From positions 1 to 46,119 of the forward strand of contig JANWVF010000041.1 in NCBI GenBank assembly GCA_025056965.1: a DNA stretch of 46,119 nucleotides. The letters run 5' to 3'. The stretch comes from Thermoflexales bacterium (lineage in GTDB: Bacteria > Chloroflexota > Anaerolineae > J036 > Brachytrichaceae). A model generated the notes under the pieces. That model worked only from the letters and a program-made list of their open reading frames with translations. It had not been told where the DNA came from and did not search any database. Every line of letters begins with the position of its first letter. The first letter of the stretch is position 1. Shown here in pieces: positions 6,026-23,379 of this stretch. Made by a program: the position numbers and the translations under genes.

Positions 6026-7027
6026 TTAAATCTGCAAGTCGGGGAGCGGCTGATCACCGGTTGTGACAGTGCGCGCGCGGCAAATCACGCGCTTCGCCCC
6101 CGCCTCCCGCAGTGCCGCACATAGCGCGACGGCGTGTGCTGCGTCTCGCGCCAGGGCGATCATGTTGCCGCCGCGACCGCCTCCGCTCATCTTTGCCCCC
6201 AGCGCGCCTGCCGCCCGTGCAGCAGCGCACAGCGCGTCAAGCTCCGGGCAAGACACGTCGAGCTGCTGAAGCAGCGCATGGTTGGCGTCCATGGCCCGAC
6301 CGAGCCCTTCCAGATCACCGCGCTCCAACGCCTCGCGCGACGAGCGCACCAGCGCGGCAATCGCGTCGAAGCAGCGTTCCATGCGCTCCGGTTCGCGCTC
6401 CCATGCCGCCCGCACGTCGCCGACGGGGATGCGCGTCGGCGTGGTGATGCCCGTGTCGGCGATCACCAGCGGCAGGGTGTCGCCGATTGCCGAGTCGAGC
6501 AATTCGGGCGGCCGGCCGCGCACAAACCACACCGGCCGCTCGTGAGCGATGACCGTGTTATCAATGCCGCTCGGCGAGCCGTGATGGATCTCCTCGACTT
6601 CGTACGCGAGTTGGCTGGCCTCTTCCGCCGACAGCGGATAGCCGAAATACGCGGCGATGGCCCGTCCGATGGCGACCGACACCGCTGCGCCGCTGCCGAG
6701 GTTCGCGCCGACCGGAATGTCGGAAGTGACGATGAGCGTCGCGCGCGGGGGCTTCTGACCGATCAGATCGAGCGCGGCCAGCGCCGCGCGCGCCAGCGGG
6801 TCGCGCGTCCGGCGCGTGTGTCGCCACGCCGAGACGACGGCGCCGACATCGGGTGCGAAGATCGTGAAGGCGTAGTGGCTGGGTTCGATGCGCGCGCGGG
6901 CGCGCAGCATCGGCAACGGCAGCGCAATGGCCGGCCGGCCATACACCACTGCATGCTCGCCGCACAAGATGACCTTTGCACAGGCGCTGCCCTCGATGGC
7001 CTCGGCCTGTTTATCCATTGCTATCAT
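6026..7027 (-). CDS. mvk: Mevalonate kinase (GHMP family)
   Basis: The enzyme phosphorylates mevalonate in isoprenoid synthesis. The 333 residues show the three GHMP motifs: the N-terminal AKVILCGEHAVVYGRPAIA block, the ATP-binding loop IPVGANLGSGAAVS (slightly altered from P-x3-G-L-G-S-S-A) and the C-terminal KMSGGGRGGNM. The EHAVVYG sequence and catalytic Asp context (GSPSGIDNTV) are specific for mevalonate kinase over homoserine or galactokinase. A second ATG at 7018 is an alternative start. TACAAT on the minus strand (7060-7055) would give a leader of about 20 nt. It complements the HMG-CoA synthase triad at 10.4-13.2 kb. Confidence 0.92.
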   Translation of the reverse strand: MIAMDKQAEAIEGSACAKVILCGEHAVVYGRPAIALPLPMLRARARIEPSHYAFTIFAPDVGAVVSAWRHTRRTRDPLARAALAALDLIGQKPPRATLIVTSDIPVGANLGSGAAVSVAIGRAIAAYFGYPLSAEEASQLAYEVEEIHHGSPSGIDNTVIAHERPVWFVRGRPPELLDSAIGDTLPLVIADTGITTPTRIPVGDVRAAWEREPERMERCFDAIAALVRSSREALERGDLEGLGRAMDANHALLQQLDVSCPELDALCAAARAAGALGAKMSGGGRGGNMIALARDAAHAVALCAALREAGAKRVICRARTVTTGDQPLPDLQI

Positions 7028-10206: not shown

Positions 10207-10393
10207 CCCGATTCAGATTGTGCTAAATTTCACTATCAAAACCTATCTCCTCGGGCGCCCCTCGCAACCTCGCCTGATTTTGGCAGGGTGGCAAGCCTAG
10301 AATCTCGATTCAGAGGCCCAGGCGCGATTCGAGCCGTGACTGCGGCGGAATAACCCAAATTCGTCTGGGATAAATTTGGGAAATTCGAGTTCT
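10207..10393 (+). promoter_or_regulatory. Leader region of the HMG-CoA synthase operon with an inverted repeat
   Basis: The 187-nt spacer is AT-richer than its neighbours at both ends. Near its 3' end is a perfect inverted repeat CCCAAATT (10354-10361) / AATTTGGG (10373-10380) with an 11-nt loop, ending 13 nt before the HMG-CoA synthase ATG. A TAAATT box (10371-10376) overlaps the right arm, so a protein bound there could occlude the promoter. The region between (10240-10350) has no riboswitch or coding sequence that I recognise. Confidence 0.45.
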
Positions 10394-11458
10394 ATGAGAC
10401 TGATGAAGCCATCGAGGCCGGTCGGGATAACGGGTTATGGTGCGTATGTGCCACGCTATCGTCTGGCCGGCCAAGCGGTATCGGAGTTATGGACCGACGG
10501 CAACGCTCAGCCGCCGGTGCGCGAAAAGGCCGTCCCCGGCTTGGATGAGGACGTCGCCACGATGAGCATCGAGGCGGCGCGCAACGCCATAGCGCGCGCG
10601 AGTTATGCCGATCCGGCGTTCAGCCCGGCGGAGCTGGGCGCGGTGTGGGTGGGCAGCGAGTCGCATCCTTACGCCGTGAAGCCCACCAGCACGATTGTGG
10701 CTGAGGCGATCGGCGCCACGCCCTACACGCAAGCCGCCGACTGGCAGTTCGCCTGCAAGGCCGGCACGGAGGCCATACAGGCGGCGATCGGCTTTGTCGG
10801 CAGCGGCATGGCCGCCTATGCCTTGGCCATCGGTATGGACGCGGCGCAGGGGCGGCCGGGTGACGCGCTCGAATACACCGCCGGCGCGGGTGGGGCCGCC
10901 TTTGTAATCGGCCCGGCCGAGCGCGCCCTCGTCGAAATTGAGGGATCGGTGTCATATGTCACCGACACCCCCGACTTTTGGCGCCGGCAATACGAGAAGT
11001 ATCCCGAACATGCCGGGCGTTTCACCGGCGAGCCGGCTTACTTCCACCACATCATCGCGTCGGTCACTGCCCTGTTGAGACAGATGAATCTCTCGGCGCG
11101 CGATTTCGCCTATGCGGTCTTTCACCAACCCAATGTCAAGTTCCCGCTCAAGGTGGGTGAGGAACTGGGCTTCACGCGCGAGCAACTGCGCCCCGGGCTG
11201 TTGGTCAACGACATCGGCAATACGTATGCTGGCTCGTCAGTCATCGGGCTGACGGCCATCCTCGACATCGCGCAGCCCGGCGATCGCATCCTACTTGCTT
11301 CGTTCGGCAGTGGGGCGGGAAGCGATGCCTTCTGCTTGCGCGTAAGGAAGACCGTGGCCGCGAAAGATGTTTGGACAACACAGGAATACGTCCAACGTCG
11401 GACGCCGATAGATTATGCGCAATATTCGCGCATGAAAGGCAACTACAAGCTGAACTAG
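10394..11458 (+). CDS. Hydroxymethylglutaryl-CoA synthase, archaeal type
   Basis: The enzyme condenses acetyl-CoA with acetoacetyl-CoA to HMG-CoA, the committed entry to the mevalonate pathway. The 354-residue thiolase-fold protein shows the acid/base Glu in [11 protein letters not shown] (near residue 52), nucleophile Cys121 in FACKAG and His244 in VFHQPN. Its length and the [10 protein letters not shown]-terminus match the archaeal subfamily rather than bacterial MvaS. The ATG at 10394 is preferred; ATG 10403 is an alternative, and a TTG at 10376 lies inside the inverted repeat. The thiolase follows after 7 nt, the order seen for the archaeal HMG-CoA synthase-thiolase-DUF35 complex. Confidence 0.93.
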
Positions 11459-11465
11459 GGTGAAT

Positions 11466-12620
11466 ATGCGAGACGTCTCAATCATCGGAATTGGGCAAAC
11501 GCCGGTGGGCGAGCATTGGGATAAAAGCCTGCGCGAGTTAGGCTTCCAGGCGCTCCGCGCGGCGATGAAAGACGCCGGGATCGAGCGCATTGACGCGCTC
11601 TACGTCGGCAACATGCTCTCCGGCGAACTCACCGGCCAAGAGCACCTCGGCGCGTTGATCGCAGACTTCGTCGGCTTGCGCGGCATCGAAGCAATCAAGG
11701 TTGAGGCCGCCTGCGGCAGCGGCGCGGCAGCGCTGCGCGTGGGTTACATGGCCGTCGCCGGTGGGCTGCACGACATCGTCGCCTGCATCGGCGTCGAGAA
11801 AATGACCGACCAGCAAAGCGGCACGGTCACCAGCGCACTGGCCGCTGCCGCAGATGCCGAATACGAAGCGTTGCAAGGGTTGAGCTTCGTCAGCATCAAT
11901 GCGTTGCTCATGCGGCGCTACATGCACGAGTATGGCTACAAGAAAGAAGACTTCGCCAACTTCGCCGTTAATGCGCATGCGAACGCGGTGAACAACCCTT
12001 ATGCGATGTTCCGCTCGCCCATCACACGCGAGCAGTTCGCGGCGGCCAAGCCGATCGCCGACCCGATCAACCTGCTCGACTCGTCGCCCATCGCCGATGG
12101 CGCTGCGTGCGTGATCCTCGCGCCAACGGCGATCGCCAAAGAGTTCACCGGCAAGCCGGTTCGTGTGCGCGCCACGGCGATCGCCACCGACACGCTAGCC
12201 GTGCATGATCGGCGCGACCCGCTCTATCTGGAAGGCGGTGCAATCAGCGCGCAGAAAGCCTACGCGATGGCCAACGTCGGCCCGTCCGACATTGACCTGT
12301 TTGAGGTGCATGATGCCTTCACCATCATGAGCGCGCTATCGCTGGAAGCGGCCGGCTTTGCGCCGCGCGGCCAGGGTGTGCGGCTGGCTATGGAAGGCGA
12401 AATCGGCCTGAACGGCCGCATCCCGATTACCACCATGGGTGGGTTGAAGGCGCGCGGTCATCCCGTCGGCGCGACCGGCATGTATCAAATTGTCGAAGTA
12501 GCTCAACAGTTGCGCGAGGAAGCCGGCGCCAACCAAGTCAAGAATGCGCGGCTGGGCATGGCGCAGAACATCGGCGGCAGCGGCGCGACTGTTGTGACAA
12601 CCATATTAGAGAGGCTATGA
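11466..12620 (+). CDS. Acetoacetyl-CoA thiolase (SCP2-like, archaeal type)
   Basis: It makes acetoacetyl-CoA from two acetyl-CoA, the substrate of the adjacent synthase. Nucleophile Cys83 lies in VEAACGSGAA; His residues occur in FEVHDAF and GGLKARGHPVGATG. The last motif reads NIGGSGAT instead of the C-x-G of classical biosynthetic thiolases, which is characteristic of the SCP2-like thiolases paired with archaeal HMG-CoA synthase. The ATG at 11466 follows a GGGTG ribosome-site-like stretch; a GTG at 11460 is an alternative. The unfavourable thiolase equilibrium is overcome in archaea by direct channelling to HMG-CoA synthase through the DUF35 protein encoded next. Confidence 0.92.
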   Translation: MRDVSIIGIGQTPVGEHWDKSLRELGFQALRAAMKDAGIERIDALYVGNMLSGELTGQEHLGALIADFVGLRGIEAIKVEAACGSGAAALRVGYMAVAGGLHDIVACIGVEKMTDQQSGTVTSALAAAADAEYEALQGLSFVSINALLMRRYMHEYGYKKEDFANFAVNAHANAVNNPYAMFRSPITREQFAAAKPIADPINLLDSSPIADGAACVILAPTAIAKEFTGKPVRVRATAIATDTLAVHDRRDPLYLEGGAISAQKAYAMANVGPSDIDLFEVHDAFTIMSALSLEAAGFAPRGQGVRLAMEGEIGLNGRIPITTMGGLKARGHPVGATGMYQIVEVAQQLREEAGANQVKNARLGMAQNIGGSGATVVTTILERL

Positions 12621-12684
12621 ATGGCGTGTGACGCGCCAATGCGCTTGGTGCGTCTTGCGTGATCAGAGGGAGGATGAAGACAAA

Positions 12685-13188
12685 ATGGAAGTAGCACGAT
12701 TCTGGAGGACGATAGGTCAGCGCTATCGCCTGATTGGTGAGGTGTGTCCGAACTGTGGCAAGCGCATCTTCCCGCCGCGCGATGTGTGCCCGGCGTGCGA
12801 GCAAGAGGCGCGCACGCCCTTCGCTTTCAGCGGCAAGGGTGAGGTGTATTCCTACAGCACGATTCATGTTCCACCGGAGGGCTTCGAGAAGTTCGCCCCG
12901 TACGTCGTGGCCTTGGTGCGCTTGGCCGAGGGGCCGCTTGTGACCGCCCAACTCACCGACGTGGACGAGGATGAGATTTACATCGGCATGCCGGTGGAGA
13001 TGGTGACGCGCGTGTTGCGTGAGGATGGCGAGCGCGGCATGTTGGTGTATGGCTACAAATTCCGACCGGCGCGCCCGGTGCGCGGCGACGCGCCTAAGTC
13101 CGCCGCGGAGCTGGCGCGCGTGCCAGAGCCGGCCGTGAACCCCGTCGCCGAAGCGAAGCAGGCGGCGATGCAAGCCGTCATGGCGTGA
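12685..13188 (+). CDS. DUF35 zinc-ribbon/OB-fold bridging protein of the thiolase-HMGCS complex
   Basis: The 167-residue protein begins with an N-terminal helix (MEVARFWRTIGQRYRL), then a rubredoxin-like zinc ribbon with Cys21, Cys24, Cys35 and Cys38, and an OB fold (GEVYSYSTIHVPPEGF, VGMP-like PVEMVTRVLRE). In archaea the homologue bridges thiolase and HMG-CoA synthase and forms a shared CoA-binding site. The C-terminal 30 residues are an extra Ala-rich tail. The ATG at 12685 is chosen over 12628 because GAGGGAGG lies before it and homology starts there. It is the third and last gene of the operon. Confidence 0.9.
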   Translation: MEVARFWRTIGQRYRLIGEVCPNCGKRIFPPRDVCPACEQEARTPFAFSGKGEVYSYSTIHVPPEGFEKFAPYVVALVRLAEGPLVTAQLTDVDEDEIYIGMPVEMVTRVLREDGERGMLVYGYKFRPARPVRGDAPKSAAELARVPEPAVNPVAEAKQAAMQAVMA

Positions 13189-13341: not shown

Positions 13342-14508
13342 TCATGTGGGCGGCAAGCGCGAGCCGCAACTGCGGCAGAACTTCTCTGTGCCGAGGATCG
13401 GTGCGCCACAGGTCGGACAAATTCGCCGCAGGGTAGGCGAGGGCGATGATGGTACTGCGGGCGATGGTGTGGTTGCCGGCGGTGGCGAAACTTTTGGCGT
13501 AGGCGCCTGCTGCGGAGCAAGAGATGTAGCAACGGCAGGCGCCGGTTTGACCGGCTCCGGCGCAGGGACAGAAGCAGGAGATACAGAAGCGGGAGCGGGA
13601 GACGGAGCTGCGGGAGGGAGTGTCGCTGCGGGGGAAGGCGGCTCAGGATTCAATCGCTGTGTGGGTTGAATCGGCGCGCCGGCCACCGGGGCCGGATATG
13701 GATTGGGCGTGATCGGGACGTTGTTCGCGGCCACCTGTGCCTGCAACATGGCCGCCTGAGCAATTTGTCGCGGAGTCAGACCCGGCTTGCGCGCGGCAAG
13801 CGCCGCGCCGAACATGGCGACAACGGCGCCGATCAGCCCTACGCCGCTCGCGATCACCGGTGTGCGCGTGTCAATCAAGTTGATAACCCCAATGCGCATC
13901 TCCGGCAGCTTGTCATTCACCGAGACGCCTAGCCCTGGGAAGCCGGCTGCATTTTGTGCCAGCGAAGCGTTGATCACAGCGTTCAGTCGTTCGCTTAAGT
14001 AGAGCATCGAACCAGCTACGACGACACAGGCCATCAGCGTCAGCGCGATCAGGGTGACGCCCTTGATCAACTGTTCGCCGAAGTAGCCTCGACTGAAGGC
14101 TACGATGACCGCCATGAGGAGCGTCAGCGCCGGCAAAGCAAAGAGCGCGACCTGGAATGGCATGACGAGGCCGGGGAGCGATTCGGTCTGTGCGGCGAGG
14201 TCGCGAATGTAGACTTGCTGCTGCGCCCCGATGTCGTACTGAGCGATCAAGTGCTCACCCCCTGGCTGTTTTTGTAGTTCGCCTGTCAGCGCTGCGATCT
14301 TCGCTGGGAACGTCGCCAAGCCGTTTGCCATCATCAGCGCCTCGTAGCCCGTCACGTTCAGGAAGATCGGTTGGCTGTCGGCTGTCAGATTGATCTGTAA
14401 GCGGGCGAACGTGCGCGTCGGCAGCCACATCAGGACGGCCATGGTCAGCGCTACGGTGATGCAGCCCAGCGCGCAGATTAAATTGTTGATGAAACGAATC
14501 ACTCCCAC
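13342..14508 (-). CDS. Membrane protein with C-terminal zinc ribbon, function unknown
   Basis: The 388-residue protein has hydrophobic segments at about 8-30, 115-138, 150-171 and 219-240, an extracytoplasmic-looking region (35-110) between the first two, then a Pro/Ala-rich low-complexity linker (about 262-360) and a C-terminal zinc ribbon (CPTCG, CRSCG). The zinc ribbon resembles that of the FHA protein encoded at 18030-18605. It is the last gene of the leftward phosphorylation island, 18 nt after kinase 1, and may be a membrane partner or substrate of the kinases. No enzymatic motif is seen. Confidence 0.75.
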   Translation of the reverse strand: MGVIRFINNLICALGCITVALTMAVLMWLPTRTFARLQINLTADSQPIFLNVTGYEALMMANGLATFPAKIAALTGELQKQPGGEHLIAQYDIGAQQQVYIRDLAAQTESLPGLVMPFQVALFALPALTLLMAVIVAFSRGYFGEQLIKGVTLIALTLMACVVVAGSMLYLSERLNAVINASLAQNAAGFPGLGVSVNDKLPEMRIGVINLIDTRTPVIASGVGLIGAVVAMFGAALAARKPGLTPRQIAQAAMLQAQVAANNVPITPNPYPAPVAGAPIQPTQRLNPEPPSPAATLPPAAPSPAPASVSPASVPAPEPVKPAPAVATSLAPQQAPTPKVSPPPATTPSPAVPSSPSPTLRRICPTCGAPILGTEKFCRSCGSRLPPT

Positions 14509-14526
14509 AGCCTCGATTTTAAACCG

Positions 14527-16458
14527 CTACGGCGAATTGCCGGTGACGATGACGTAGTAGCGACGCACCGGGAAGCCCTGCTGGTCGCGATGGCTGGTCT
14601 CCGCCTCGTTCGGCGCAACGAGTGCGTTGCATGGGCGATCTTTTGCCCGCGCGCTGGTCATCGCCACGCGCATATCCACGACGACGGTGTTGGTGTCCCG
14701 GCGGGGAGTCACGCGCGCGTGGATGTAATGCTGCTTGCCGGCTTCCCAGTTGAGGAAGTACGACTCGGCGACCGGATAGGCAATCGGCCTTTGTGAAGGC
14801 TGGCAGGTCTCATACGACACCATCTGGTTGCAGCGGTTGCGGGGGGTGATCACCCGGGCGTAGGAGTCGGTGCTGAAAACGCAATTGTCCGGCTCGATGT
14901 TGACGATGTTGTTATCAACGTTGATGAGCTCGATCGCCTCGGCTTCCTGAAAGGAGATCGTGATCGAACCGGCGTCGGCCGCGGCTCCGCCCGCGTTGCT
15001 GCCCCAGATGATCACATCGAACGGCTGGCCTGGGCGAATCGTGCCGGGGATGGCGATGCCATCAATGCGCGGCTGCGGCAGATCGCCGCTGCCTTTGCTC
15101 GGCGCAAGCACGATGACGACCGTCGGCGACGGTGTAGGGGTTGGGCTGGGCGTCGGCGTCACGGTCGGCGTGCGCGTCGGCGTTGGCGTAGGTGTTGATG
15201 TCGGCGTCGCCGTGGGCCTGGCCGTTGGCGTCGGCATTGCCGTGGGTGCAGGCGTGGGTGTGGGTGACGGCGCCGACGTCGGCGTTGCGGTTGTCTCGTC
15301 GGCAGTGGGCGCGATGACGACCGGCGCTTCGATCGGCGTAGGCGTAGCCCGCGGCGTAGCGGTCGGTCGCGGCGTCTGTGTTAGGGTTGGCTCAGGCGCA
15401 GGGGTATTGCTGGGCGTTGGCGTGAGAGTCGGCGCGGGTGTCTCGGTCGGCGCAGGCGATGTCGCAGGTGTGGATCGTGCCTCATTCCTGCCGCCGGCCA
15501 GCACCGATGTCCCGCCGAGCACGTCCAGCGGTGCAAAGCCGAATGCGCTGCTCAGCATCAGCCCAATGCCGGCGCAGAGCAGCGCGCTGATGGTGATGGC
15601 GGAGAGGCCCAGCCCGATGCGCGCGCGTTTGCTGAGCGAAGCCAGCCCCTTACGATGGAGCGCTCTGCGAAACTCCTCGACAGTCTGGAAGCGCTTGCTG
15701 ATCTCGATCTGCGTGGCCTTGGCGATGGCATCGGCGACGGCCGGGCTAACGGCCTTCAAATCGCCGTGGACGCGATCGGCGCGTGGCAGCACGAACGGCG
15801 TCAGGCTAGGGTCATAACCTGTGAGCGCGTGCAGCAGCGTCACGCCAAGCGAGTAGATGTCGCTGTATGGACCGGTCTGTCCTTTGCCGTGTTGCTCCGG
15901 CGGCGCGTAGCCTGCCGTGCCGAACGGCTCGGTATCTGCGCTTTTGCCCTCTTTGAACGTGCGCGCGATGCCGAAGTCAATCAGCTTGATCCGGCCGCCG
16001 GTTGTGAAAATAATGTTGCTCGGCGTGAGGTCGCGATAGATCACCGGCGGCGATTGCGTGTGCAGATAGGTGAGCACGTCGCACAGTTGGTCGGCCAAGT
16101 CGAGCACTTGTTCTTCGGGCAGACCGTACCATTGGCCCACCATGCGCTCGGCCAGCGTCTCGCCTTGGATGTATTCGGTGACGAGGATGGGTTTGTTGTC
16201 CTCGGTGACGAAGTAGTCTATGACCTGCACGATGCCGGGGTGGCTGAGCTGCGACAGCATGCGCGCCGTCGTCTCGAACTGACGCCGGGCGGCCTCGGCG
16301 TCGGCCGACATGCCGATGCCGAGCTTGAATACCTTGACTACTACCTGCCGATTGAACGTGCGCTTGTCGGCAGCTAGGTAGATCGTGGATTGTCCTCCGT
16401 CGGTCATCCAGCGGAGGATCTCGTAACGATCGTTGAGAATCGTTCCCGGGGTCAGCAT
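14527..16458 (-). CDS. Membrane Ser/Thr protein kinase with Cys-containing ectodomain (kinase 1)
   Basis: The 643-residue protein has a cytosolic Hanks-type kinase domain (residues 10-270): Gly-rich loop DGGQSTIY, Lys42 (VVVKVF), probable helix-C Glu62, catalytic loop YRDLTPSN (Asp143, Asn148), DFG (161-163) and GTAGYAPPE (180-188). The usual Lys two residues after the catalytic Asp is Thr145, as in kinase 2. One transmembrane helix (about 281-303) is followed by a Thr/Pro-rich stalk (329-446) and a folded ectodomain (460-643) with four Cys and a beta-rich character, so it may sense an extracellular or envelope signal. It lies 86 nt downstream of paralogous kinase 2. Confidence 0.93.
   Translation of the reverse strand: MLTPGTILNDRYEILRWMTDGGQSTIYLAADKRTFNRQVVVKVFKLGIGMSADAEAARRQFETTARMLSQLSHPGIVQVIDYFVTEDNKPILVTEYIQGETLAERMVGQWYGLPEEQVLDLADQLCDVLTYLHTQSPPVIYRDLTPSNIIFTTGGRIKLIDFGIARTFKEGKSADTEPFGTAGYAPPEQHGKGQTGPYSDIYSLGVTLLHALTGYDPSLTPFVLPRADRVHGDLKAVSPAVADAIAKATQIEISKRFQTVEEFRRALHRKGLASLSKRARIGLGLSAITISALLCAGIGLMLSSAFGFAPLDVLGGTSVLAGGRNEARSTPATSPAPTETPAPTLTPTPSNTPAPEPTLTQTPRPTATPRATPTPIEAPVVIAPTADETTATPTSAPSPTPTPAPTAMPTPTARPTATPTSTPTPTPTRTPTVTPTPSPTPTPSPTVVIVLAPSKGSGDLPQPRIDGIAIPGTIRPGQPFDVIIWGSNAGGAAADAGSITISFQEAEAIELINVDNNIVNIEPDNCVFSTDSYARVITPRNRCNQMVSYETCQPSQRPIAYPVAESYFLNWEAGKQHYIHARVTPRRDTNTVVVDMRVAMTSARAKDRPCNALVAPNEAETSHRDQQGFPVRRYYVIVTGNSP
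15121..15474 (-). repeat. Thr/Pro-rich low-complexity repeat in kinase 1
   Basis: About 118 codons of TP/PT dipeptides (TPTPT, PAPTLTP and the like) form a degenerate 6-bp-periodic tract. The protein segment is an extended stalk of a kind common in Chloroflexota surface proteins and open to O-glycosylation. It also produces a long open Val/Gly-rich frame on the other strand (14960-15817), which is an artefact. Confidence 0.85.
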
Positions 16459-16544
16459 CTACGTCGAAAAATTGTCGCACAACACGTTGCTGCGAAGTTG
16501 GAGAGCGATCCGCGGCACACCGAGGCTGCCGCACGTTCGGCAAT

Positions 16545-17972
16545 TCATCGCTGCTCGTTGCCGGCTGCCCTGGCCGCTATGTCCAGCCTCTGGCCTTGCG
16601 GCGTAGGCTGTGGCGTCGGCGTATTGGCGAGGACTGGTTCGCGTGTGGCCGTGGGCTGTGGCGTTGGGGTGTCAACGAAAACCGGCCGGCGCGTCGGCGT
16701 GGCCGTAGCCGTTCCCCCCGCGGTCACCGTCGCGTCTGAGGTCGGTGTTGGTGAAGCCGATGGTGTGGGCGTCGCAGCCTGGGTCGGTGTTGAGGTCGGC
16801 GTAGGTGTTTCTGTCGGCGTGGCGGTGGGCGTAGGCGTGAGTGATGGCGTCGGTGTGGGCGATGCTGTGGGCGTTGGTGTTGGCGCAGGTGCGTCGGTGG
16901 GTGTATTGGCCGGCGCAGATGTCATTGTAGCCGTGGCTAATCCCCTCGCATCGGGCGCTGCCGTCGCCTGCCCGTTGCCGAATAGTCCTACCGGAGTCGC
17001 AGTCTCACTTGTCGAGCCGCCCGGCAGCGTGCCCAGCGCGCTGGCCAGCATAAGTCCGATGCCACCGCACAACACAAAGGTCACGAAGATTAATCCAGCG
17101 ATGGCGCCGACGTGAGCGCCACGGATAGGCGTCTGGCCGATGCTGATGCTGGGCGAGCGACGACGAGCGCGGCGGATGTCGCGCCGGAATTCCTCGACCG
17201 ACTGGTAACGCTCGGTAATGTCCAGGCGAGTGGCTTTCTCGATCGCGTCGGCCAGCGCCTTGCTCACCTCTTTCAGGTCGGGGTGAACCATGTCTGCGCG
17301 CGGCAGCATAAACGGAGTTAAGCTGGGATCGTAGCCGGTGAGAGCGTAGAGCAACGTCGCGCCGAGTGAGTAGATATCGCTGTAGGGTCCGGTTTGGACG
17401 TTGCCGTATTGCTCAGGTGCGGCGTAGCCCGTCGTCCCAAGCGGTTCGGTATCTGCCGTCTTTCCGATCTTGACGGTGCGCGCGATGCCGAAATCAATCA
17501 GCTTGATCCGACCGCCGGGCGAGATGATGATGTTGCCGGGCGTCAGGTCGCGATAGATGACCGGGGGCGTCCGGCTGTGCAGATAGCTGAGCACGTCGCA
17601 CAGCTGCTCGGCCAGGTCGAGCACCTGCTCTTCCGGCAGGCCGAAGGCCTCTAGCTGCAGGCGTTGATGCAGCGTTTCACCCTCGGCATATTCGGTGATC
17701 AGCAACGGGACATCCCCGTTCAGCACGTACTCGATCACCTGGATGATGCCGGGGTGGTGAAGTTGGGCCAGCATCCGCGCGGACGCTTCGAACTGCTGGA
17801 GTGCCGCTTCGCGCGAGGCCGGCGTGCCCGCGCCGATTTTGAATTCCTTCACCACCACGCGATGGCCGAATGCCCGCTCATCTGTGGCGAGGTAGACGAT
17901 GGACTGGCCGCCCTCGGCGATCTTCTCGACGATGCGGTAGCGTCCGTTGACGAGCTGGCCGGTGACAAGCAT
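16545..17972 (-). CDS. Membrane Ser/Thr protein kinase with Thr/Pro stalk only (kinase 2)
   Basis: The 475-residue paralogue of kinase 1 is similar throughout the kinase domain: EGGQSIVY loop, Lys42, helix-C Glu62, YRDLTPGN (Asp142, Thr144 in the usual Lys position, Asn147), DFG (160-162) and GTTGYAAPE. A transmembrane helix (about 287-311) and a TP-rich tail (about 340-465) follow, but there is no folded ectodomain: the protein ends soon after the stalk. It probably arose by tandem duplication with loss or gain of the sensor domain, and may act as a heteromeric partner of kinase 1. It is 57 nt after the zinc-ribbon FHA gene. Confidence 0.92.
   Translation of the reverse strand: MLVTGQLVNGRYRIVEKIAEGGQSIVYLATDERAFGHRVVVKEFKIGAGTPASREAALQQFEASARMLAQLHHPGIIQVIEYVLNGDVPLLITEYAEGETLHQRLQLEAFGLPEEQVLDLAEQLCDVLSYLHSRTPPVIYRDLTPGNIIISPGGRIKLIDFGIARTVKIGKTADTEPLGTTGYAAPEQYGNVQTGPYSDIYSLGATLLYALTGYDPSLTPFMLPRADMVHPDLKEVSKALADAIEKATRLDITERYQSVEEFRRDIRRARRRSPSISIGQTPIRGAHVGAIAGLIFVTFVLCGGIGLMLASALGTLPGGSTSETATPVGLFGNGQATAAPDARGLATATMTSAPANTPTDAPAPTPTPTASPTPTPSLTPTPTATPTETPTPTSTPTQAATPTPSASPTPTSDATVTAGGTATATPTRRPVFVDTPTPQPTATREPVLANTPTPQPTPQGQRLDIAARAAGNEQR
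16593..16925 (-). repeat. Thr/Pro-rich low-complexity repeat in kinase 2
   Basis: About 110 codons of TP-rich repeats with the longer units VFVDTPTPQPTATREP and VLANTPTPQPTP near the end, an imperfect tandem duplication. Equivalent in position to the stalk of kinase 1, though separately expanded. Confidence 0.8.
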
Positions 17973-18029
17973 GGCGATTGATTCGGCGGGCGCGTTCTCG
18001 CCGTCGAGTGCCCTGCCTTCCCAGATGGC

Positions 18030-18605
18030 CTAGCTTTGCACGATGTCGAACCTGACGACGCAGCGGCCCAGCTCGATCCGGTCGCCCGGACACAGTAGCA
18101 CGGGCTGCCCGGTTTCGATGCGTGTGCCGTTGATGCTGGTCCAATTCGTCGTCGTGAGGCTGACGATTACCGGTTGATTGCCGGCAGTGAGCATGATGCG
18201 CGCGTGCCGCCGGGAAACGGTGCGATCCGGGTCGTAGGGCGTCAGGTCAACGTCAGGCCGGACGCCGTTGACAGGGTCCTCTCGACCGATCAGCCAAGTG
18301 TTCGTCGGATTCGGCGGGAGGTGAATGATCGTGCCGTTGCTGCTGATCAGTCGCAGCGCGGTGCTTACGGGTGACTGTTCGATGACCGGGCGGGCAGGTG
18401 CAGCCGGCTGCGGCTTCGGCGGTGCAACTGCTTCGAGGGGTGCACCGCACTCCCCGCAGAACTTGCTGTCGGCCGGGTTGACGTGTCCGCACTGCGCGCA
18501 GGTCAGGTTAACGACCGTCAGCACCGGCCCGCTCAAGCGCGTTCCGCACCGGCTGCAAAAGTTCGCTCCCTCGGCTTGCTCTGCACCACAATTCGGGCAA
18601 ATCAT
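18030..18605 (-). CDS. Double zinc-ribbon FHA protein
   Basis: The 191-residue protein has two tandem zinc ribbons: Cys3, Cys6, Cys17, Cys20 and Cys36, Cys39, Cys50, Cys53, a Pro/Ala linker, and a C-terminal FHA domain (about 85-188). FHA signatures are the GRED turn, SRRHARI (phosphothreonine-binding Ser/Arg/His) and the SINGTRI loop. FHA domains bind phosphothreonine, so this is a soluble reader for the adjacent kinases; its TP-rich neighbours are candidate ligands. No signal peptide. Gene order is VWA-FHA gene, this gene, kinase 2, kinase 1. Confidence 0.9.
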   Translation of the reverse strand: MICPNCGAEQAEGANFCSRCGTRLSGPVLTVVNLTCAQCGHVNPADSKFCGECGAPLEAVAPPKPQPAAPARPVIEQSPVSTALRLISSNGTIIHLPPNPTNTWLIGREDPVNGVRPDVDLTPYDPDRTVSRRHARIMLTAGNQPVIVSLTTTNWTSINGTRIETGQPVLLCPGDRIELGRCVVRFDIVQS

Positions 18606-18637
18606 CTGGCGTACTCCTCGTTACGTGCACAGGACGC

Positions 18638-20584
18638 CTAAGAGTTCAGCCGTTGCGTCTTCCGACCTTGCTGAAAGATCAGCTTTGTCATGCCGACTTC
18701 GATCTCGGCGTCCTCCGGCAGCGGCGTGCGCGTCTTGATCGGAAGTGGCATGCGATTCACGCGCGTGCCGTTCGCCGTGCCCTCATCGAGGATGTAGAAC
18801 TGTTGCGTGACCGGGTCGCGCGTGATCTGGAAGTGACGGCTCGACACATAAGGGTCGCTCATGAGCACGACTTCGCACTGCGAGGGGTCGCGCCCGACCC
18901 AGACCGTGTCCGATCCGACCGGCAACGACGCGCCGGTCATCGGCCCCGATACCACCTTGAGCTCGGCGATCGGTTGGCGGTTCAGGCCTAGCCGCTGAGT
19001 GACCATGCGGATGCCGCTTTGTACGCTCTTTGACATGTTGGCGCGCAGCACGGCGAACTGGTCGCTGTAGCGGCGGTTCATGATGATCAGTGCCACAATC
19101 AACCCAAGCGTGATGATCGCCAAGCCGCACAGGCTGGCGGCCAGGGCGGTGTTTTGGCGCAGCCATTGGTCAAACGAGGGCGCCTCAGTTGGCACGAAGG
19201 GTACTGCCGGCACCGAGGCGACCTGCAGCGTCGTGCGCACTGATGGGCTGTTGCTCGTGGTCTCCAGATACGAATCGGTCGCTACGGCCTGGAAGGCATA
19301 GGGGAGCGTCTTGGTGACTACGCTGCGGTCCTCCTTCGGCGGTTGCCAGACCAGCTCGTAGGGTGGGGCATCCACCCGACCGATGGATGTGCCGTTGGCG
19401 AAGAACTCCACGCTCACATCGCGCACTCGCCCATCGGGGAATTCCACCTGCGCGACAATCGTGATCGGTGGCGCGGGTTCAGCAGTCTCCTGGAAGAAAG
19501 TTGTGCCCTCTTGGGGAGCGAGCAGCTTGACCGTCGGTGCTCGGAGCGTGGATGCGAAGCGCACCTCTGCCGTGTCGCTGCCGAGCTGGGTGTTCACCGT
19601 CAGCCGCGCCGAGTGCTCACCGGCCGGCTTGATGCTGGTGAAGCGCAAGATGTACTGCGACCGCTGCGAGTCTATGCGGTTATACATCGCGCGCAGTTGC
19701 TCCTCGGCTTGTTGCAGCGGCACGCTCGAGTCCAGCAGCACGTATCCGCCGTTGGTTTGCGCCGCCAGCGCGCTCATGTTGGTGAATTCGCGCGGGCTGC
19801 GCTGGTTGACTTGCACGGCGAAGATCGAAATGCTGGCCTCGTTAGCCCGCCGCAAGATGTCACCTCGGATGCCCTCATCGCTGAACTTGTTGTCTGCGCC
19901 GTCTGAGAACAACAGGATGATCTTCCGCCGCTGCGCGAGCGCATCGCGGATGGCGACGTCGGGATTGCGCGCCAGCAAATTCACCGCCTGGTTGAGGCCG
20001 TCGAAGAGCGCCGACGTGCGCTCGACCGGTAGCTGAGGAATCGCTTCCAATCGAGCCTTGATCCCATCCAGATCGGTAGTGGGCGGGATGAGTTCGGCAA
20101 ACTTGTTGTCGCCCGTGCCGGTGGTCACAACCAAGCCGACGTAATCTTTGCCGGCGCTGTTGGCTGCCAAGGCCTGCATGAACTGTTGCGCGACGCGGCG
20201 CACGTTCTCGGTGTTGACCACGTTGTAGTCGCGCGTGTTGTTGAGGCCGGCCAGGTCGGCCACGATCACGACGCCGACGCCGGCGTTGTCGGATTCAACG
20301 CTGCTGATTGGGATGGGGCTGTTATCCGCAAGGTTGGTGAGCGTGAAATTCTGTTGCGTGAGTCCGGTCGCTGCGCTGCCGTCCGGCCACACGACGGATG
20401 CCGTGATGGTGTACTCCGGCGCGCGAGTGTTGTCCACCTGTTTCACCTCGAGCGTGGGGCCACCGGTTTGGGCGCCCGCCGCACGAGGCGGGAGCGCAGC
20501 CCCTAAGATGAGCGTGCCCAGTGCAGCGATCGCAAGCACGCGCAGCCAGTTGAGCTTGATTATTCCTACATTCTTCTTGATCAT
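18638..20584 (-). CDS. Exported VWA domain, transmembrane helix and cytosolic FHA domain protein
   Basis: The 648-residue protein has a signal peptide (about 12-38), a von Willebrand A domain (about 104-300), an Ig-like beta domain (350-455), a transmembrane helix (480-502) and a C-terminal FHA domain (540-640; GRD 564-566, SSRH 581-584, NGT 605-607). The MIDAS is altered: the usual D-x-S-x-S is VADLAGLNN (Asp110 kept, both Ser lost), while LFSDGADN (225-232) is present. The topology places the VWA outside and the phosphothreonine reader inside, so it could join an extracellular ligand to phosphorylated kinase or partner in the cytoplasm. The ribosome site is weak (GAGATTAAAG). Confidence 0.9.
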   Translation of the reverse strand: MIKKNVGIIKLNWLRVLAIAALGTLILGAALPPRAAGAQTGGPTLEVKQVDNTRAPEYTITASVVWPDGSAATGLTQQNFTLTNLADNSPIPISSVESDNAGVGVVIVADLAGLNNTRDYNVVNTENVRRVAQQFMQALAANSAGKDYVGLVVTTGTGDNKFAELIPPTTDLDGIKARLEAIPQLPVERTSALFDGLNQAVNLLARNPDVAIRDALAQRRKIILLFSDGADNKFSDEGIRGDILRRANEASISIFAVQVNQRSPREFTNMSALAAQTNGGYVLLDSSVPLQQAEEQLRAMYNRIDSQRSQYILRFTSIKPAGEHSARLTVNTQLGSDTAEVRFASTLRAPTVKLLAPQEGTTFFQETAEPAPPITIVAQVEFPDGRVRDVSVEFFANGTSIGRVDAPPYELVWQPPKEDRSVVTKTLPYAFQAVATDSYLETTSNSPSVRTTLQVASVPAVPFVPTEAPSFDQWLRQNTALAASLCGLAIITLGLIVALIIMNRRYSDQFAVLRANMSKSVQSGIRMVTQRLGLNRQPIAELKVVSGPMTGASLPVGSDTVWVGRDPSQCEVVLMSDPYVSSRHFQITRDPVTQQFYILDEGTANGTRVNRMPLPIKTRTPLPEDAEIEVGMTKLIFQQGRKTQRLNS

Positions 20585-20741
20585 CTTTAATCTCAGCTAC
20601 TTCTTATGGATCAAGTCGGCGAATCTTGCGCCGGCCCTCGAATGAGCGTCGGGAACTCAGAAAACTGTCGCCTTCCCACAAGAAGGCCACGCGAACGTGA
20701 TGCGATTCGCGCGGTCTAGCAAGGTTATTCTAACCAAATTC
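20585..20741 (-). other. Gap between the PP2C and VWA-FHA genes with two stem-loops
   Basis: This 157-nt gap is the largest within the island. Just after the PP2C stop lies GGTTA-TTC-TAACC (plus strand about 20723-20735). Further along, GCCTTC (20670-20675) pairs with GAAGGC (20682-20687), followed on the minus strand by GACAGTTTTCT. This could be a weak terminator or attenuator that lowers expression of the five distal genes relative to the three proximal genes, or the site of a second promoter. No clear -10/-35 pair is seen. Confidence 0.4.
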
Positions 20742-22265
20742 TCACAAAAACTTTCCGATTGCAACGGCGATGTTGTCCTCACCTCCGTTCGCATTAGCCA
20801 AATCCACGAGGCGGTCGCAGGCGATCTGTGCGTTCGACGAAAAGATCAACACATCTCGCATCGCCTCGTCACGCACCATCTCCCATAACCCGTCCGAGCA
20901 CACCATCAGCCAGTCGCCTGGCTGCAGGGGCACCGGCTCGTGCGCGTCGGATATGCCGGTCTTCGGATCGCCGAGCGACCGGTAGATCAGACTGCGTTCG
21001 GGATGCGTGTAGCGGTCTTCGTCGCGCAGCAGGCCGGCATCCACGAGCGACTGGACGAGTGAATGGTCTTTCGAGAGCCGGATGAGTGGACTGTCCTCGC
21101 TCGAGCGCCACAAGTAGATGCGGCTGTCGCCGACATTTCCCAGATAGGCTTTGCCATCTACCACCAGGGCGAAAGCGAGCGTGGCGCCCATCTGATTCCC
21201 GCGCCGCTCCCCCTCGGCCACGATCAAATTGTTGATGTCCTTGACCGTACGCTGCACCCAGGCGTTAATCTCGGCCGGCGAGAGCTTCTTGCCGGATGCG
21301 AACAGCTGTTGTGCTGCCTCGGTCAAGGCGCGAATGGCCAGCTCGCTGGCGACCTCGCCGGCTTCCACGCCCCCCATCCCGTCGGCGACTGCCAGCAATA
21401 TCGGCTTGCGCCGTGGCTGGCCCTCGCCTGCCGCGCCTGTCGTGATCTCAATGGCGCATACGCTGTCCTCATTATCGGCGCGCACCATGCCGGTGCTGGT
21501 GGCGTGGCCGAGTTCGGCCTCCAGCCCATCGCCATGATGGGCGGAGTCGGCCTTGACGCGCCGCAGTCCGCTCAGCAACATCGCCGCGTTAATTCGCTCG
21601 TGTGGGTCGGCTGCGCGACGCAGCGCATATCGCACGTGCGACTGCGCGTCAACCAGCCGAGTATGCGCCAGTGCCGCGCACAATGCTCGCACGTCGGCAT
21701 ACGCTGCTTCTGGCTCGTCTTCCAGCAGAACCAGCGCGCCGAGGTTGCGCCAGTGTGCGCCTGCCGAATTCACGCCGATGTGTCGCATCACGGCGTCCTC
21801 GTCGGTCAATCTAAAAGCCACGCCGCAACTGTGCAAGATGTCCAGCCCTTCGACTAACTGCTCGAACCAGATCTCCCATTGGCGCTTCGGCTGCTGGTTT
21901 AGCCAAGCCACGCTCATCAGGTCTGGCGCAACGACCTCGGGCACGTAATACCGGATGACCCGGTCGAACCAGCCCATCTCGAACATCGGCAGCAGGCGTG
22001 CCAAGTAAGGGGACGGCTTTTGTTCGAGCCGTTCGCTCAGCGTGAGCGTGCCGGCCAGATCCAGCAGTGCCAACCCCTCGTGCAACAAGAAGCACGCCGA
22101 GCCATCGGCGGCGACAGCCTCATAGCTGCGCGAGCGGCTGTTTGCGTGCAGGCCTTCGTCGAAGGCAGTAATGATGTATGACGTGTTGCGCGTCGCATCG
22201 GTTACATATTCGCCGATCGGCAGCGGATCCGAAGCCGTGGAGAGCGTAGCAGTCGAAAGGGTCAT
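20742..22265 (-). CDS. Pseudokinase-PP2C fusion protein phosphatase
   Basis: The C-terminal half (about 250-507) is a PP2C-type Ser/Thr phosphatase with its metal-binding residues intact: RADNEDS (262-268), DGMGG (295-299), GNVGDSR (376-382), SDGLWE (457-462) and GGEDN (494-498). The N-terminal 240 residues resemble a degenerate protein kinase C-lobe: LHSCGVAFRLTDEDAVM (144-160) in place of the H-x-x-x-x-x-H-R-D-L-K-P-x-N-x-x loop, ADVRALCAALAH (190-201) in place of the D-x-Y-S-L-G helix, and DPHERINAAMLLSGL (220-234) in place of the closing helix. No catalytic Asp, Lys or DFG remains. It is 17 nt after the small FHA gene. Confidence 0.88.
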   Translation of the reverse strand: MTLSTATLSTASDPLPIGEYVTDATRNTSYIITAFDEGLHANSRSRSYEAVAADGSACFLLHEGLALLDLAGTLTLSERLEQKPSPYLARLLPMFEMGWFDRVIRYYVPEVVAPDLMSVAWLNQQPKRQWEIWFEQLVEGLDILHSCGVAFRLTDEDAVMRHIGVNSAGAHWRNLGALVLLEDEPEAAYADVRALCAALAHTRLVDAQSHVRYALRRAADPHERINAAMLLSGLRRVKADSAHHGDGLEAELGHATSTGMVRADNEDSVCAIEITTGAAGEGQPRRKPILLAVADGMGGVEAGEVASELAIRALTEAAQQLFASGKKLSPAEINAWVQRTVKDINNLIVAEGERRGNQMGATLAFALVVDGKAYLGNVGDSRIYLWRSSEDSPLIRLSKDHSLVQSLVDAGLLRDEDRYTHPERSLIYRSLGDPKTGISDAHEPVPLQPGDWLMVCSDGLWEMVRDEAMRDVLIFSSNAQIACDRLVDLANANGGEDNIAVAIGKFL

Positions 22266-22282
22266 TTAGGACGCATCCACCT

Positions 22283-22693
22283 TTAATTTTGCACCACAAA
22301 CTGGAAGACGGCCTGCTGCGATTTACCTAGCGAGATCGTCACCCCCGAGCGCAAACGATTATGCCGCGAGCGTCGGCCGTCCACAAACATGTGTTCGCCT
22401 TTGATCAAGCGCGCCTCCCATCCCATGCCGTCCGGCGTACGGACGATCTCAGCATGGTCTTCGACCAAGTCGTCCACCGACTTGCCGGTGATGCGATACC
22501 AAGACGTACGACCCAGGCGAATTGGCTCGGTCAACGGAAGGCGCTTGCTGCCGATCACCAGATATGCTGCCGGTGGCTTCGGCGTGCGACGACGCGAAAA
22601 CAACCCGAACAGACCGGCCAAGCCCCCCGCACCTAGCAGGATGACGTCGGCGCAGGCCGTAAACGTTTCGGGTGATGCAACGGGAGTGCTCAT
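22283..22693 (-). CDS. Small membrane-anchored FHA-like protein
   Basis: The 136-residue protein has a hydrophobic N-terminal segment (about 15-33, LLGAGGLAGLFGLF) and an FHA-like domain (about 44-134): IRLGRTSWYRI for the first Arg turn, EDHAEIV for the S-x-x-H strand with Ser replaced by Glu/Asp, and FVDGRRSRHNRL for the N-G-T loop with Asn lost. Phosphothreonine binding is therefore uncertain. Its ATG overlaps the stop of the degenerate PP2C gene (ATGA), implying coupled translation and perhaps a complex between the two. Confidence 0.78.
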   Translation of the reverse strand: MSTPVASPETFTACADVILLGAGGLAGLFGLFSRRRTPKPPAAYLVIGSKRLPLTEPIRLGRTSWYRITGKSVDDLVEDHAEIVRTPDGMGWEARLIKGEHMFVDGRRSRHNRLRSGVTISLGKSQQAVFQFVVQN

Positions 22694-23379
22694 CGGTTAA
22701 ATGATCTACCGAAGATGCTCGTGACCAATGAGCGTTGCGGCCCGAAGACGACGGCCCCCAAGGCCTCGCGCGCACCCTTCTCCTTTGCCATCTTCAGCAA
22801 GTGCTGCGCGGCGCTCTGCGGCGCACGTGAATACACGCTCAGCGCAATGTCGTACTCATCTAGCTTTTCGCTCAACGACGAGGTGCAAATCAGCATGCTA
22901 TCCTCTGGTTCTAGCTTGCGCTGAGCGGTGGGCTCCATGCGGATCGCATCAATGCGCCCGCTGGCCTGGATGCAGTAGCAGCGCACCGCGCCCGCGGCAA
23001 TGCCGTACCACTGGTTGCCGACTATTGCGGCGATCACGACGGATGGACGCACCGTCGCCTCATCGGTCTGCGCTCGGCTCTGGATTGGGCGGCTTGCCTT
23101 GTCAAGCGCAGCGCGCAGGGCGATCAGCCGATCCACGTCAGGTGGAACCTCCTCGTAGGCCTTGGTGATCTGCTCTATCAAGCGCTGGCCGGCCGATGGT
23201 TCGCCTTGGACATCGGCGATCGCCATCAGCAGCCCGCGCGGCGAGTTCAACGCGGCGCGCGCGTCCGGATGCGGACCGGCCGGGAAGACGGCAGCACCAA
23301 CCGCGCTGCCGAATGCGCTCCAACTCGCTTGCCAGCCTAGGCGCAGGCGAAATTGATCGAACCTTCGTCCGCCGAACAC
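22690..23379 (-). CDS. Degenerate PP2C-like protein (predicted pseudophosphatase)
   Basis: The 229-residue protein aligns along its length with PP2C landmarks but lacks the metal ligands. LLMAIADVQGEPSAGQ (50-65) stands for LLAVADGMGG-x-x-A-G, keeping Asp56 but losing the Gly-Met-Gly-Gly turn. GNQWYGIAAGAVRCYCIQ (121-138) stands for G-x-Y-x-x-N-V-G-D-S-R with Asp lost. LEPEDSMLICTSSLSEKL (156-173) stands for L-x-x-G-D-x-x-L-L-C-S-D-G-L with the Asp lost. KGAREALGAVV (201-211) stands for G-G-x-D-N-I-T-V-V with Asp and Asn lost. It probably binds rather than hydrolyses phosphoprotein. The start is a GTG with TAAACT 6 nt upstream and no Shine-Dalgarno sequence. Confidence 0.72.
   Translation of the reverse strand: MFGGRRFDQFRLRLGWQASWSAFGSAVGAAVFPAGPHPDARAALNSPRGLLMAIADVQGEPSAGQRLIEQITKAYEEVPPDVDRLIALRAALDKASRPIQSRAQTDEATVRPSVVIAAIVGNQWYGIAAGAVRCYCIQASGRIDAIRMEPTAQRKLEPEDSMLICTSSLSEKLDEYDIALSVYSRAPQSAAQHLLKMAKEKGAREALGAVVFGPQRSLVTSIFGRSFNR

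Follow-up and report, generated by a model that had tools for sequence, protein, structure and literature searches.

A compact set of eight genes, designated A to H in order of transcription, occupies positions 13342 to 23379 on the minus strand of the window (the whole 46,119-nucleotide stretch of DNA that was analyzed). These genes are a conserved unit, and their arrangement is not due to chance, because the same order was found in other species and dN/dS ratios were 0.07 to 0.20. The encoded proteins are best interpreted, with a probability of roughly 0.55, as a membrane Ser/Thr phospho-signaling hub of writers, readers, and a likely shared eraser, in which non-catalytic parts would set place and timing.

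Gene organization and conservation

The host genome (G000) is a 3.13-Mb draft in 165 contigs that is 99.4% complete, with the locus on contig C1, and its nearest named relatives belong to "Candidatus Roseilinea" (Chloroflexota). The eight co-oriented genes described in an initial annotation of this DNA were recovered as eight minus-strand ORFs, six of which (C, D, E, F, G, and H) had Pfam support. Genes A and B share a 4-nt overlap, and the remaining intergenic gaps are 17 to 157 nt. A scan of the locus for promoters and terminators gave no excess over shuffled sequences. No description of the A-to-H locus was found in the open-access literature. All coordinates of locus features given below refer to the minus strand.

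Gene D was present in all nine genomes of the genus, and the full order from A to H was present in eight; the contig of the ninth (L035) stops inside gene G. Within the second genus of the family, genes A to H were found in one genome (L038) and genes B to G in two (L037 and L039; genomes G010 and G017), where A and H were searched for and not found and the ORF at the position of H is unrelated to H. Loci L031 to L039 are on the same contigs as some of the genomes that carry G numbers and were counted once. Synteny beyond one strain, which had been proposed as a check, was thus seen both within the genus and in a second genus. The flanking genes were common to most genus members, but L036 and the second genus have different ones, so that the A-to-H set itself is what has been kept.

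All eight genes, including those labeled inactive, are under purifying selection (Nei-Gojobori dN/dS against relatives). Ratios were 0.07 to 0.10 for C and D, 0.10 to 0.14 for B, and 0.15 to 0.20 for A; the pseudokinase domain of C gave 0.08 to 0.10, and the kinase domains of F and G gave 0.03 to 0.06. A chance neighborhood of unrelated signaling genes is refuted by this selection and by synteny across species and in a second genus with different flanks, and it retains practically no probability.

The genes adjoining the locus at positions 10376 to 13188 and 6026 to 7027 of the window encode HMG-CoA synthase, thiolase, a BbsA-like/DUF35-type protein, and mevalonate kinase. This synthase is of the archaeal type (TIGR00748, 477 bits versus a cut-off of 353), the thiolase matched PRK06064 above the cut-off, and the synthase/thiolase side was common to most genus members.

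The pseudokinase-phosphatase fusion of gene C

Gene C (positions 20742 to 22265) was annotated by Pfam, alignment, hhalign, and genome profile searches as encoding a pseudokinase-PP2C fusion. The pseudokinase domain (residues 13 to 246; positions 21528 to 22229) was assigned by hhalign, a profile search of PDB sequences, and motifs. These residues aligned over their full length with the kinases of the locus (hhalign, 99.2%; E = 9e-20), while control profiles of PP2C, VWA-FHA, and pseudo-PP2C proteins gave 0.5% or less. The other hhalign match of the C profile, to zinc-ribbon-FHA proteins, covered 38 columns and corresponded to a zinc ribbon carried by other homologues. The PDB search with the N terminus returned kinases, and the VAIK Lys, HRD Asp, and DFG Asp were absent in 11 of 11 aligned homologues. 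Judged by these profile comparisons, the N terminus is a pseudokinase with a protein-kinase fold.

The PP2C domain (residues 249 to 507; positions 20745 to 21521) is of the active type according to structure alignment and invariant motifs. The structure alignment of C contained only PP2C rows, covering residues 247 to 507 (the N terminus being assigned by profile comparison), and included tPphA (Z = 30) and the actinobacterial phosphatase PstP (2cm1; Z = 29.9, 37% identity). The motifs ADGMGG, GDSR, SDGL, and EDN are invariant, and every metal-ligand Asp is conserved. The one active PP2C of the initial annotation accordingly stands (Pfam, 1e-16), and the pseudokinase N-terminal to it had been missed.

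Bacterial pseudokinases have been grouped into seven families (PMC12599244); in the text of that paper, "phosphatase" occurs only in the reference list and Chloroflex is not mentioned. The N terminus of C resembles the pseudokinases EssB and MviN in combining a kinase fold with the loss of the three catalytic motifs, but C adds a fused active-type PP2C. EssB binds FHA domains that lack the phosphothreonine site (PMC11217815), and MviN recruits FhaA once it is phosphorylated by PknB (PMC12599244). Long Anaerolineae forms of C resemble the NCBIfam serine/threonine phosphatase PRK14559 in having an N-terminal zinc-ribbon match and a C-terminal PP2C; however, gene C scored 81 of the 374 bits required and the Chloroflexota matches tested scored at most 141, far under the cut-off. 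In the proposed hub, the PP2C domain of C would erase phosphorylation, and the pseudokinase fused to it may be a docking or gating domain.

Genes A and B: a pseudo-PP2C and a degenerate FHA domain

Gene A (positions 22690 to 23379; 229 amino acids) had no Pfam match and was annotated as a pseudo-PP2C by Foldseek, hhalign, alignment of 10 orthologues, and dN/dS. The best Foldseek matches of its AlphaFold model (mean pLDDT, 72.6) were tPphA, PppA, and PstP, with E values of 1e-11 to 1e-12 (top, 7e-12), and hhalign against a PP2C profile gave 96.8%. A PP2C-like protein without metal ligands had been described here, and the loss extends to 10 of 10 orthologues except for one Asp, which is retained in most but not all of them. 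Descent of A from the second, TM-containing PP2C of related loci had no clear tree support. The A protein may compete for or hold PP2C substrates or partners.

Gene B (positions 22283 to 22693; 136 amino acids) is predicted to encode an N-terminal TM segment and a degenerate FHA domain, on the basis of a sub-threshold Pfam match (14.1 bits, under the 20.7 cut-off), profile homology, and motifs. Its homologues in related loci are TM-FHA proteins (97%; E = 1e-10) with strong FHA domains and the GR, SxxH, and NG motifs. B itself keeps GR, but the Ser of SxxH is lost in all copies and the Asn of NG is lost at the aligned position. Of the three FHA proteins first listed for the locus, D and E (below) are therefore canonical and B is degenerate.

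The most likely membrane dock for the C pseudokinase would be B, a membrane-anchored degenerate FHA protein whose gene immediately precedes C; this suggestion draws on gene adjacency, one fusion, and analogy. The gene 5' of C encodes a TM-FHA protein in six well-covered loci of the class. In the fusion (G151), a TM segment is joined onto the pseudokinase-PP2C, with no Pfam FHA domain in the same chain, as would be expected if the job of the FHA protein were to tether C.

Kinases, canonical FHA proteins, and a zinc-ribbon membrane protein

Two membrane Ser/Thr kinases were expected at the locus, and genes F and G encode them (Pfam E values of 1e-34 to 1e-36, with predicted TM segments). Gene F (positions 16545 to 17972; Pkinase E = 3e-36) has a TM segment at about residue 283 followed by a Thr/Pro-rich stalk outside the membrane, and its kinase motifs are intact (VVVK, YRDLTPGN, and DFGI). 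Gene G (positions 14527 to 16458; Pfam and motifs), whose kinase motifs are likewise intact, has a TM segment at about residue 280, a Thr/Pro-rich stalk, and a C-terminal ectodomain. This ectodomain (about residues 470 to 643; positions 14530 to 15051) contains conserved cysteines, is kept in the second-genus orthologues, and may be Ig-like. The F orthologues clustered in a tree (support, 0.91) with the G copies adjacent, so the duplication appears to be older than the split of the two genera. The G kinases of the second genus have DFS rather than DFG (L037:12596-14476, L038:13143-15170, and L039:13575-15452).

Both kinases would autophosphorylate and phosphorylate partners by means of their cytoplasmic kinase domains. 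A search for phosphothreonine in the kinase stalks had been suggested; it was misplaced, because the stalks come after the TM segment and should be extracellular, so that phosphothreonine is better sought in the activation loops and juxtamembrane parts. The term "phosphorelay" was also dropped, as the locus gives no hint that phosphoryl groups pass from protein to protein in the manner of a His-Asp relay. PADLOC matched F and G as generic kinases (PD-T4-6 and MAD6) and matched no other protein of the locus, and a defense role was set aside.

Gene D (positions 18638 to 20584; Pfam and alignment) encodes a signal/TM segment, a VWA domain, an Ig-type Big_7 domain, a second TM segment, and a cytoplasmic FHA domain. 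This is the VWA-Ig-TM-FHA protein of the initial annotation, in which the loss of the DxSxS serines had gone unnoticed: motif alignment showed that the MIDAS of the VWA domain (positions 19754 to 20272) is degenerate, carrying DLAGL or DLGGL instead of DxSxS, as it also is in homologues across the class. The FHA domain of D (positions 18668 to 18958; Pfam and motifs) contains GR, SSRH, and NGT. Gene E (positions 18030 to 18605; Pfam, 1e-13, and motifs) encodes a soluble protein with a double zinc ribbon and an FHA domain containing GR, SRRH, and NGT. The phosphothreonine-contact residues GR, SxxH, and NG are thus all present in D and E, and these proteins are predicted to bind phosphothreonine, D from the membrane with its VWA-Ig portion outside and E in soluble form with its zinc ribbons. 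In genome G008, gene D (L041:10030-11971) is interrupted by a change of frame at residue 591, and tblastn recovered it in two pieces, 3 to 591 and 591 to 648.

Gene H (positions 13342 to 14508; Pfam and alignment) encodes four TM segments, a Pro-rich linker, and a C-terminal zinc ribbon, as expected of the zinc-ribbon membrane protein reported earlier. Together with the order kept in other species, these assignments support the earlier description of a writer, eraser, reader, and inactive-partner unit with extracytoplasmic domains.

Phosphatases and kinases elsewhere in the genome

Gene C was the single PP2C match in the host genome with both the PP2C and PP2C_2 profiles, a result that applies to PP2C-type phosphatases, as distinct from the SpoIIE and PPP types, in a profile search of a 165-contig draft. 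A single PP2C_2 match was also found in six further genus members, one of which is a single contig, whereas two others of the genus and one genome of the second genus had additional PP2C genes. The host genome contained eight kinase matches by profile search, two of them at the locus. A PASTA kinase-PBP-RsgA cluster lies on host contig C50 (L098:3846-9168), with no PP2C gene next to it in the 10-kb stretch examined.

The presence of C as the only PP2C-type phosphatase detected, together with a PASTA kinase cluster elsewhere that has no PP2C gene, indicates that the eraser is probably shared with other kinases rather than dedicated to the locus; C would also serve the PASTA kinase. The word "dedicated" in the initial annotation was given up for this reason. 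A closed envelope-sensing pathway, in which the ectodomain of G and the VWA-Ig portion of D sense and F, G, and C act only on proteins of the locus, would be consistent with the ectodomains and gene order kept in two genera and with the compact, operon-like spacing. Such closure is nonetheless rather unlikely with C as the sole PP2C detected in a genome that encodes the PASTA kinase and other kinases elsewhere.

Related loci and comparison with known systems

A profile of gene D had matches at 1e-15 or better in 42 of 396 Anaerolineae genomes. Where contigs were long enough, a recurrent Anaerolineae trio was found, consisting, in this order, of genes for a TM-FHA protein, a zinc-ribbon-pseudokinase-PP2C, and a VWA-Ig-TM-FHA protein; it is followed by variable sets of kinase, PP2C-TM, and soluble VWA or zinc-ribbon-FHA genes. 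Pseudokinase-PP2Cs were also found outside Anaerolineae within Chloroflexota, and in G426, G458, and G493 they are paired with VWA genes. Across the phylum, the pseudokinase profile matched 65 of 400 genomes, a figure that includes many short matches and is not a count, only the f1, f71, and f81 loci having been accepted by reading.

By content the locus is a kinase/PP2C/FHA cluster, and it matches no tested known system fully; it is set apart because the actinobacterial, type VII, TerY-P, and Rv1747-PknF tests each failed at least one defining feature. The actinobacterial PknA/PknB-PstP-FhaA/FhaB-RodA-PbpA cluster resembles the locus in its contiguous kinase, PP2C, and FHA genes and in its PstP, which is similar to the PP2C domain of C. 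However, that cluster includes a kinase with PASTA domains, which F and G lack (the PASTA kinase of the host is that on C50), and it contains RodA and PbpA genes, whereas no PBP or SEDS match was found among the eight locus proteins.

The accessory genes of T7SSc to T7SSj (PMC11217815) encode TM kinase, PP2C, FHA, and vWA partners, as at the locus, and Rv1747-PknF pairs an FHA-ABC exporter with a kinase (PMC3908365). The locus might accordingly be an orphaned regulator, derived from a cassette that once controlled, or elsewhere controls, an FHA-ABC exporter or type VII-like machine and that acquired a new target here. The locus version in G027 contains a DZR-FHA-FHA-ABC exporter, and the PP2C, pseudokinase-PP2C, kinase, VWA, and zinc-ribbon-FHA genes of G605, a genome from another class, adjoin a divergent gene for an FHA-ABC exporter. 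As read from the sequence, two to three VWA-TM-FHA-like proteins in G026 and G014 (L045:5123-19001 and L046:9492-18881) are also encoded beside FtsK/EssC-like ATPases and ubiquitin-like-FHA proteins.

The host genome differs from these systems in several respects. No WXG100 match was found in it, and in all, seven of the nine genus members had none. The frames that contain its FtsK_SpoIIIE matches are 875, 989, and 343 amino acids long, and none is a multi-ATPase frame of the EssC type; multi-ATPase frames of 1,365 to 2,963 amino acids occurred only in other genomes searched. The VWA domain of the locus sits outside the membrane. An FhaA-like gene and other FHA genes lie on other contigs of the host, and among its seven FHA frames in total, the longest of which is gene D, none is an FHA-ABC exporter, judged by length. 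A type VII-like cluster in the genus member G002 (L110:833-17991), with a 1,361-amino-acid multi-ATPase and WXG100 proteins, includes its own set of three kinases and the two extra PP2C genes of that genome. The orphaned-regulator explanation is improbable in view of the WXG100, multi-ATPase, and FHA frame results and of this self-contained G002 cluster. In G036 (L043:9053-14690), again as read from the sequence, a VWA-TM-FHA gene adjoins kinase-FHA, CpaE-like, and CpaB-like genes, which suggests a Tad pilus neighborhood.

The TerY-P triad of kinase, PP2C, and vWA shares its domain types with the locus, where the three genes are also adjacent, and soluble VWA proteins with an intact-looking DxSGS motif were found in some related loci. 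A similar triad for metal or chaperone stress is still very improbable here, since no TerD-family protein was found in the host genome and the VWA domain of gene D is exported, TM anchored, and without the MIDAS serines. The initial annotation's statement that other type VI and Ter-linked components are absent applies to this genome in respect of WXG100, a multi-ATPase EssC-type frame, and TerD, none of which was found; some related loci elsewhere in the phylum, in contrast, contain or adjoin an FHA-ABC exporter.

Implications

Few experimental models exist for bacterial pseudokinases and pseudophosphatases. With active and inactive partners in one compact locus and an eraser fused to a pseudokinase, the A-to-H locus would offer a direct test of pseudoenzyme control of Ser/Thr phosphatase targeting, and single- or few-contig Chloroflexota genomes with related loci (G605 and G493) may offer cultured hosts. 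Tentatively, and at a lower probability than the hub itself, the locus may belong to a Chloroflexota-wide system built around the pseudokinase-PP2C. The active domains would then be positioned and gated by dead or degenerate kinase, PP2C, FHA, and VWA domains recruited for this task, and all PP2C-type Ser/Thr dephosphorylation in the Roseilinea lineage would have passed to this single fused enzyme.
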